A DNA stretch of 64,000 bases from assembly GCF_900110605.1 (NCBI RefSeq), contig NZ_FOFI01000003.1, forward strand, positions 372,001 through 436,000. Direction: 5' to 3'. Shown here piece by piece: positions 56,603 to 58,232 of this stretch (position 1 is the first letter of the stretch; the number at the start of each line of letters is the position of its first letter). The translations under genes and the position numbers were made by a program. Source of the DNA: Epilithonimonas lactis (lineage in GTDB: Bacteria > Bacteroidota > Bacteroidia > Flavobacteriales > Weeksellaceae). The notes beneath the pieces are model-generated. The model was not told the origin of the DNA. It worked only from the letters and a program-made list of their open reading frames with translations, and did no database searches.

Positions 56603-56607
56603 GCGTT

Positions 56608-56740
56608 AACCACAAAAGTCACAAAAGAGAAATCTACATTCATCATTGCAGAAGAGCAAAAAAGAAAACTACATAACTTTGACCTTTTTTCACTTTTGAA
56701 TAACTTACAAAGAATTACAACTTTTGTGACTTTTGTGGTT
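56608..56740. repeat. 133-bp element with perfect 20-bp terminal inverted repeats
   Basis: The left arm AACCACAAAAGTCACAAAAG (56608-56627) is the exact complement of the right arm (56721-56740). The centre is AT-rich without an ORF. It sits between tex and the FAD monooxygenase. A degenerate relative is at 61917-62040 and a weaker one at 21131-21245, so it is a dispersed non-coding element, possibly MITE-like. Confidence 0.8.
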
Positions 56741-56786
56741 ATAAAAATTGATAAAGTTCAAATCCTATCAGAACGACTATAATAAA

Positions 56787-58232
56787 ATGCAAACCAAAAC
56801 ACCTTTTTTCACCACCTGCACAGACTGCCTAGGCCTCGGAAAGAAAAAGCGGAGAATCAAGAAAAGTGCGCGCTTTCATTACCAAAAAGCCTTGTTGGAA
56901 TTTGAGAAAGCAGGCCGTGATGGAATTGAACCCACACCACCGGAAGCGCATTGGTATGTTTGCCCAACTTGCTCTGGCTCAGGATTGATTGCTTCGGATA
57001 GTTTTCCTGTTCCAGATACAGAGAATCTTCCGCACGTTGCCATCATTGGTGCTGGGATTGGTGGCGTGGCATTGGCCGTGGCTTGTCTGCACCGTGGCAT
57101 TCCGTTTACCATTTATGAGCGTGACAATAGTTTTAATGAACGGTCGCAAGGTTACGGGCTGACTTTACAACAAGCCAGCAAAGCAATTGAAGGTTTTGGG
57201 ATTTCAAAGTTGGAAAAAGGTGTGGTCTCCACAAGACATCTTGTTCACACACCCGACGGAAAAGTGGTTGCTGAATGGGGAATGCGAAAGTGGCTTCAAA
57301 ATTCCGAAAAGCAATCTCCTAAAAAGACCAATATCCATATCGCCAGACAATCGCTCCGTTCCGCATTCATAGAACAATTGGGCGGAAATGACAAGATAAA
57401 ATGGGGACATCAACTCATTGATTTTAATGAAAATAAAGAAGGTAAAATTGACCTAAACTTTCAAGTCAATGGCGTATCAACAATTGAAAAAGCAGATATC
57501 ATAGTCGGTGCAGACGGCATCCGAAGTGCGGTTCGGAATATTTTAATTGGTGAAGAAATTTCCCCTTTGCGCTATTTGGATTGCATCGTTATTTTAGGCA
57601 TTTGCCCGTTGAGTGCGTTAGAAAATCCAGACCATCACTTACTAGACTCAGCAACGGTTTTTCAGACAGCCAATGGGAACGAAAGGATTTATATGATGCC
57701 ATTTGATGCTGATTCCATAATGTGGCAACTCAGTTTTCCAATGTCTGAGAACGAAGCAAAAAACCTTAGCAGTAAAGGTTCAGAAGCATTTAAAGAAGAA
57801 GCCATTAAAAGGACCAATTGGCATTCTCCTATTCCCGAAATCATTAGTTCCACATTGGCAAGTCAGATTTCTGGATATCCCGTTTATGACCGCGCGTTGC
57901 TATCATCAGAATTAATGAAAAACTTCGGAAAAGCCACGTTGATTGGTGATGCCGCACATCCGATGAGTCCTTTCAAAGGGCAAGGTGCCAATCAGGCTTT
58001 GTTGGATGCGCTGTCTTTAGCTCGTGAAATCTCAAAAAAATGCAGACCATTATCGCAATGGCGAACCGATGGAATCAGGAAAAGTGTCCTATCCGATTTC
58101 GAATCAGAAATGATACAGCGAAGTTCCATTAAAGTTGAAGATTCTGCGGCCGCCGCACAGTTCCTTCATTCCGAAATTGCGCTCTATGAAGGGAATGAGC
58201 CACGGGGGAAAGTCTTGAAAAGGAAAGATTAA
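56787..58232 (+). CDS. FAD-dependent monooxygenase with N-terminal zinc-finger-like domain
   Basis: The 481-residue protein has residues 1-75 carrying two CxxCxGxG motifs, 'CTDCLGLG' (Cys11, Cys14) and 'CPTCSGSG' (Cys59, Cys62), spaced like half of a DnaJ zinc-binding domain. Then follows a class A flavin monooxygenase: GxGxxG in 'IIGAGIGGVALAVA' (88-93), 'GADGIRSAVR' and 'IGDAAHPMSPFKGQGANQAL'. Hydroxylates an unknown small molecule. The zinc domain is unusual for this enzyme class. The frame extends to a TTG at 56748; ATG 56787 is preferred. Confidence 0.85.
   Translation: MQTKTPFFTTCTDCLGLGKKKRRIKKSARFHYQKALLEFEKAGRDGIEPTPPEAHWYVCPTCSGSGLIASDSFPVPDTENLPHVAIIGAGIGGVALAVACLHRGIPFTIYERDNSFNERSQGYGLTLQQASKAIEGFGISKLEKGVVSTRHLVHTPDGKVVAEWGMRKWLQNSEKQSPKKTNIHIARQSLRSAFIEQLGGNDKIKWGHQLIDFNENKEGKIDLNFQVNGVSTIEKADIIVGADGIRSAVRNILIGEEISPLRYLDCIVILGICPLSALENPDHHLLDSATVFQTANGNERIYMMPFDADSIMWQLSFPMSENEAKNLSSKGSEAFKEEAIKRTNWHSPIPEIISSTLASQISGYPVYDRALLSSELMKNFGKATLIGDAAHPMSPFKGQGANQALLDALSLAREISKKCRPLSQWRTDGIRKSVLSDFESEMIQRSSIKVEDSAAAAQFLHSEIALYEGNEPRGKVLKRKD

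Follow-up and report, generated by a model that had tools for sequence, protein, structure and literature searches.

The window, by which we mean the whole 64,000-nt stretch of DNA that was analysed, carries a complete gene whose product joins a small, DnaJ-like finger to a class A flavin monooxygenase. Two CxxCxGxG motifs, here called knuckles, lie at residues 11-18 and 59-66, and the enzyme follows from residue 83, with the Pfam family FAD_binding_3 covering residues 84-417 (E 9e-17). In the ORF reading of the window, the gene runs from ATG 56787 to a stop codon ending at 58232. A TTG at 56748 offers a second start further upstream; we prefer the ATG because it aligns with the start ATG of relatives down to ~78% identity, and the residues preceding it are common only to the nearest of them. 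The features discussed here are the following:

56787..58232, plus strand: complete gene through its stop codon; N-terminal half-DnaJ finger joined to a class A flavin monooxygenase, 481 aa in all
56817..56840, plus strand: knuckle 1, CTDCLGLG, residues 11-18; C11, C14 and G18 invariant in 48 sequences
56841..56879, plus strand: basic strand and helix start, residues 19-31; net charge +8, positions 19-27 acid-free in 48 sequences
56862..56909, plus strand: helix by prediction, residues 26-41; reduced or absent in the Myroides/Paenimyroides branch
56961..56984, plus strand: knuckle 2, CPTCSGSG, residues 59-66; C59, C62, G64 and G66 invariant in 48 sequences
57048..57065, plus strand: GxGxxG FAD-binding motif GAGIGG, residues 88-93; G88, G90 and G93 invariant in 48 sequences
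57513..57536, plus strand: DG motif DGIRSAVR, residues 243-250; D243, G244, S247 and R250 invariant in 48 sequences
57945..57986, plus strand: GD motif GDAAHPMSPFKGQG, residues 387-400; 14 of 14 positions invariant in 48 sequences
58143..58229, plus strand: conserved tail, residues 453-481; S453, A456, L460, H461, S462, P472 and R473 invariant

What kind of enzyme follows the finger? The GxGxxG, DG and GD motifs are all present and the fold agrees with them, which makes this a class A flavin monooxygenase. The whole-protein model reaches a pTM of 0.79, and its core (residues 80-474) gave Z scores of 29.9-35.3 in a fold comparison (best 50 of 1000 chains aligned). The tropone monooxygenase TrlE (8rqh_B; Z 35.3, rmsd 2.6, 349 aligned) and PhzS (2rgj; Z 34.7, rmsd 2.8, 346 aligned) are among the matches, which together with HpxO and TetX fall at Z 32-35. 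TrlE, PhzS, HpxO, TetX, AbsH3 and AfoD all share the fold and the cofactor motifs with residues 80-474 at ~20% identity; the alignments span the enzyme and not the finger. Because relatives of the same fold lack it, the finger lies outside the catalytic fold. The preliminary description had set this architecture apart from the standard TetX and PHBH forms, and homologue comparison agrees, as do the scores against the TetX tetracycline destructase models, which stay far below their cut-offs (NF033111, 62 versus 750 bits; NF033476, 45 versus 550 bits). A substrate is not readable by homology, with all NCBIfam models shown scoring far under cut-off. Class A enzymes take their electrons directly from NAD(P)H, and going by the class A motifs the default reading would be a hydroxylase that depends on FAD and NAD(P)H. 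Within the core, C266 (57582-57584) and C273 (57603-57605) lie seven residues apart on one predicted strand and are invariant in 48 sequences.

Could the two knuckles be a coincidence of composition? None of 200,000 shuffled versions of the protein contained two motifs and 135 contained at least one, and of the 113 stop-to-stop frames of at least 100 codons in the window, only the monooxygenase gene contains a CxxCxGxG. All 87 distinct genes of the family retain CxxC...CxxC, and 84 of them retain both exact CxxCxGxG motifs; in the remaining three, Ser or Ala replaces the first glycine of motif 1. The 87 genes are those left after removal of duplicates (identical last 300 residues), loci without a BLAST match at 1e-5 and eight outgroup loci. 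Cysteine codons swap between TGC and TGT from relative to relative with the residue unchanged. Six of the eight cysteines in the protein are invariant in the 48-sequence alignment, a selection from ~62 distinct sequences, and the other two, C100 and C419, reach at least 90% conservation. The shuffles and this conservation rule out a chance motif. Close homologues lacking the cysteine motifs had been set beforehand as the refuting result; they were sought and none was found among the 87.

The proposed two-motif, DnaJ-like half-domain ahead of a class A monooxygenase was thus borne out by Pfam, homologue alignments and motif conservation, and the count of only two of DnaJ's four repeats is also correct. 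Both motifs were named correctly as well; their separation was given as 44 residues, which is the distance between the CxxC pairs, and the spacer proper measures 40 residues (19-58). An artefactual fusion or a wrong frame is ruled out by the identical fusion in all family members read. We therefore give an accidental or mis-annotated fusion practically no weight: nothing was found in its favour, the TTG at 56748 leaving open just the exact first residue, and it would have to account for 87 of 87 distinct genes in two phyla and for 0 of 200,000 shuffles. For annotation, two CxxCxGxG knuckles together with the GDAAHPMSPFKGQG core make a clean signature.

The finger and its enzyme subfamily travel together. 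Among 296 genomes from the taxonomic family to which the window belongs, 56 have a match at 54-100% identity, each beginning at residue 1-10; the next best match in those genomes has 33% identity and begins at residue 83. Thirty of the 56 were read as sequence and 26 are known by alignment range only. Three of the latter (G036, G030 and G007) are flagged with one in-frame stop each, which could reflect a pseudogene, an assembly error or a stop near the match end. Across 395 Bacteroidota genomes, a search with the full protein returned 22 at 53% identity or more and then only matches at 33% or less, and the finger profile alone picks the identical 22 genomes at E 9e-21 or better. Nearly all matches at or below 33% begin at residue 78-85, past the finger, and a few begin at 56-67, with no match to knuckle 1; by their sequence, these homologues are ordinary monooxygenases without a finger.

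Outside Bacteroidota, 7 of 145 genomes from the order of a Marinomonas are positive, with eight copies at 61-67% identity, and further carriers are a Zhongshania (L058), a Sulfuriflexus (L064) and another Marinomonas (L048). The 87 distinct members come from Bacteroidota and Gammaproteobacteria, relatives having been sought around Bacteroidota and Pseudomonadota centres, with one contig scan using exact short peptides of the protein. In a tree that takes in 41 of the 87 distinct finger-bearing rows (it omits L058 and L048, and the window's own row was dropped as a duplicate with its neighbours L032 and L033 included), all finger-bearing rows fall on one side of a branch with support 99/95, found in 98% of bootstrap trees. 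This pattern points to a distinct monooxygenase subfamily that probably gained its finger once. Twelve gammaproteobacterial rows, the named ones all Marinomonas, group inside the Bacteroidota rows (joining branch 90/83, not starred in the tree), which argues for horizontal transfer from Bacteroidota; the outgroup comprises eight rows, two of them on very long branches, and this leaves the rooting uncertain. One genome, G1076, contains a decayed copy of the gene start (L145:1492-1605) in addition to an intact copy.

Does the finger also occur without the enzyme? Strong matches to a finger profile are fused to the monooxygenase in 29 of 29 genomes, in open frames of at least 477 aa. These genomes comprise 22 of 395 Bacteroidota, 3 of 369 from the class of a Marinomonas and 5 of 388 Pseudomonadota, one genome being shared by the last two sets. 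The profile was built from 43 of 61 distinct sequences, with the window copy replacing L001 and four short-spacer forms left out; a free-standing finger was not found with it in the 395, 369 and 388 genomes, although short forms could escape such a search. Viral contigs gave 76 pattern matches for the finger, none confirmed, and the window's finger had no match among the plasmids and phages searched. The weak profile matches, six in the 395 Bacteroidota genomes (E 0.003-0.01) and one in the 369-genome set, were read individually and rejected as free-standing fingers: three are RNase E/G-like chains matching at a CPxCxGxG, one is a DnaJ, two are short Cys-rich frames, and L095 showed no CxxCxGxG frame; the names RNase E/G and DnaJ come from inspection of the sequences. 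The sole weak match in the 388 Pseudomonadota is a decayed gene copy. In the three RNase E/G-like chains (L092, L094 and L097), CPxCxGxG is followed by V/I-QS, resembling knuckle 2.

Modelled alone, the finger reaches a pLDDT of 82 and a pTM of 0.47, and the whole-protein model gives identical secondary structure: strands 7-10 and 19-21 flank knuckle 1, a helix spans 26-41, and strands 56-58 and 67-70 flank knuckle 2. Foldseek placed DnaJA2 at a probability of 0.98 (E 0.17), a BSD2 homolog at 0.66 and anti-TRAP at 0.63, followed by lambda Q and the DnaJA3 finger and, lower, UvrA and some unrelated proteins; all these matches have E above 0.1 and are weak. VIA-align ranked anti-TRAP first (Z 4.2, rmsd 7.9, 46 aligned; best 13 of 44 chains compared) and then DnaJA2 (Z 3.6, rmsd 3.3, 51 aligned), with BSD2, E. 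coli DnaJ, lambda Q and UvrA following in this order among the matches listed. At E up to 0.1, DnaJ_CXXCXGXG is matched by 42 of 43 fingers and Anti-TRAP by 39 of 43. The window's own finger stays below all Pfam cut-offs (PF00684, 20.5 versus 32.7 bits; Anti-TRAP PF15777, 17.5 versus 32 bits) and is consequently not a formal member of PF00684, whose four CxxCxGxG repeats compare with two in this protein. The agreement of individually weak matches, together with the 42 of 43 Pfam hits, makes it likely that the modelled finger is built of DnaJ-type knuckles.

In DnaJ, repeats 1 and 4 share one zinc site, and the spacer of 40 in the finger compares with 45 between those repeats in E. coli DnaJ (read from the 1exk alignment). 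The DnaJ/Hsp40 cysteine-rich domain thus offers the same knuckles and, in DnaJA2, the top Foldseek match, whereas the finger has two motifs instead of four, lacks a J domain, and carries a basic strand and helix in place of repeats 2 and 3. Anti-TRAP (AT, RtpA), described in PMC2896485 as zinc-dependent with two CxxCxGxG per chain, gave the best Z of the finger; unlike the finger, it is a 53-residue regulator with 6 residues between the motifs, without an enzyme and without a basic helix insert. In the cysimiditide/type II pamtide precursors, according to PMC13001092, two CxxCxGxG bind zinc and present the intervening stretch; these are methyltransferase substrate peptides, not oxygenase parts. 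By anti-TRAP and cysimiditide precedent, the finger is likely to bind a single zinc ion with its two hairpin knuckles. As a matter of chemistry, a CxxC...CxxC geometry could also hold iron, in which case the site would resemble rubredoxin and pass electrons to the FAD, making the enzyme self-sufficient. This is very improbable: both CxxC continue as CxGxG, the zinc signature of DnaJ and anti-TRAP, and the motifs of a class A enzyme, which is reduced by NAD(P)H itself, are intact. Foldseek and VIA-align list no rubredoxin among the finger matches, though one could have gone unlisted.

Between the knuckles, 47 of 48 sequences have a basic residue at positions 19 and 26 and 38-42 of 48 have one at positions 20, 22, 23 and 25, and the first 10 residues after motif 1 contain 4-7 K/R in all 86 scorable members of the 87. 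The spacer in these 86 is 40 residues long in 77 and 39 in five; lengths of 18, 19, 28 and 32 occur once each, in L062, L065, L040 and L060, all within one branch of the tree. In the two Paenimyroides members (L062 and L065; spacer 18-19), the helix and the loop after it are largely gone, with the knuckles and a GKxKQRIRKK strand kept. Since both survive the deletion of the helix, knuckles and basic strand are the retained core of the module. Measured between the window and 12 relatives, dN over residues 1-80 exceeds that of the core by a factor of 1.7-4.8, and this faster change outside the cysteines is as compatible with a spacer or stabiliser as with a surface for docking. The basic strand can alternatively pack on the enzyme itself.

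These patterns bear on whether the finger might be purely structural, its one zinc stapling the N terminus, stabilising the core or joining subunits with no part in recognition. Such a role would suit a module in which cysteines and glycines are fixed while spacer and linker drift. It also has precedents: the CPxCxGxG motif of RNase E/G, the point at which three weak profile matches met the finger, links subunits through zinc, and anti-TRAP oligomers are described as requiring zinc (PMC2896485). Class A enzymes of the same fold nevertheless manage without a finger, and a staple has no need of a conserved positive strand that is acid-free at 19-27 in 48 sequences. We regard a purely structural role as the main rival to the docking reading given below, possible yet less probable than it.

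The surroundings of the gene give no pointer to a partner, as no neighbour is conserved: when 371 predicted ORFs were clustered over 39 loci, no neighbour occurred in more than 8 loci, the best clusters recurring in 6-8 of 39. Tex-like, glycerophosphodiesterase-like and M28-like peptidase genes, named by reading, are found only in the Epilithonimonas/Chryseobacterium relatives and L035, and a short-chain dehydrogenase cluster, also named by reading, occurs additionally in one Flavobacterium locus. A promoter scan found no sigma-70-type site, Bacteroidota promoters being of another type, and terminators were at chance level. Just upstream of the gene, at 56607-56741, lies a perfect inverted repeat of 21 nt, TAACCACAAAAGTCACAAAAG, whose arms are separated by 93 nt. 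Its 18-nt core has 29 copies in the genome at no more than one mismatch versus 0 for the reversed control, and many of these copies form facing pairs ~105-115 apart. On this sequence evidence, the inverted repeat is a dispersed MITE- or REP-like element.

The absence of a conserved thiol or redox gene nearby speaks against a further reading, in which the four cysteines act as a redox switch: oxidation would expel the zinc and disulfides would toggle the enzyme, or the CxxC pairs would exchange thiols with the substrate. The strict conservation of the cysteines described above would suit such a switch, and PMC5818400 reports thiol-disulfide activity for the DnaJ cysteine-rich domain. The same source describes ZnJ2 as binding zinc yet lacking oxidase action, and the knuckle glycines are conserved too, which a plain dithiol would not require. 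Nor did the sequence, structure and neighbourhood comparisons give any sign of a thiol substrate. We consider redox control improbable and rank it behind a structural role.

What, then, does the finger do? The preliminary description had suggested that it may recruit a protein-bound or thiol substrate or regulate the enzyme by redox. In general, a class A flavin monooxygenase works on small molecules by itself, without a recognition domain. That the module is kept across two phyla with all cysteines held suggests that it is needed for the job of this enzyme. The reading we prefer, with a probability of roughly 50%, is docking: the half-DnaJ finger would attach the hydroxylase to a macromolecular partner of acidic character or to a macromolecule-bound substrate. 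We infer the following scheme: the two knuckles would hold one zinc, and the strand and helix between them would form a strongly positive arm; the core would use FAD, NAD(P)H and O2 to hydroxylate a substrate, as class A enzymes usually do; and the zinc module would do no chemistry itself, serving to dock the enzyme onto the acidic partner or substrate. Docking is favoured because zinc knuckles of this type are often found in proteins that contact another macromolecule: structure entries are titled for BSD2 bound to Rubisco large subunits and for lambda Q bound to DNA, and anti-TRAP is described as binding TRAP (PMC2896485). As far as the protein sequence can tell, the knuckles and the strongly basic strand favour docking over redox control. 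Identifying the partner would reveal either a new way of delivering substrate to such monooxygenases or a bacterial oxygenase that acts on macromolecules.

Finally, we would like to place the docking reading next to a known arrangement. Each part of the protein is known, and the combination of finger and monooxygenase has no name in the Pfam, NCBIfam or PHROGs results; no description of the architecture was found in the open-licence PMC literature by title or abstract start. The nearest functional idea is the eukaryotic MICAL, by a likeness of description and not as a shown relative. According to PMC3645671, MICAL combines a flavin monooxygenase-like domain with protein-interaction modules, including LIM, and acts on the cytoskeleton; its enzyme is N-terminal with the other modules after it, whereas in our protein the finger comes first. 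It is tempting, though speculative and on balance unlikely, to see a bacterial counterpart of MICAL here: a flavin hydroxylase modifying a protein, a nucleic-acid-bound or a carrier-bound substrate recognised by the one-zinc finger and its positive arm. If true, Bacteroidota would possess a new kind of macromolecule hydroxylation, which Gammaproteobacteria then acquired from them. At the other end of the protein, the C-terminal tail is modelled at pLDDT <50 from residue 463 despite its conservation, and may become ordered only on binding a partner or substrate.
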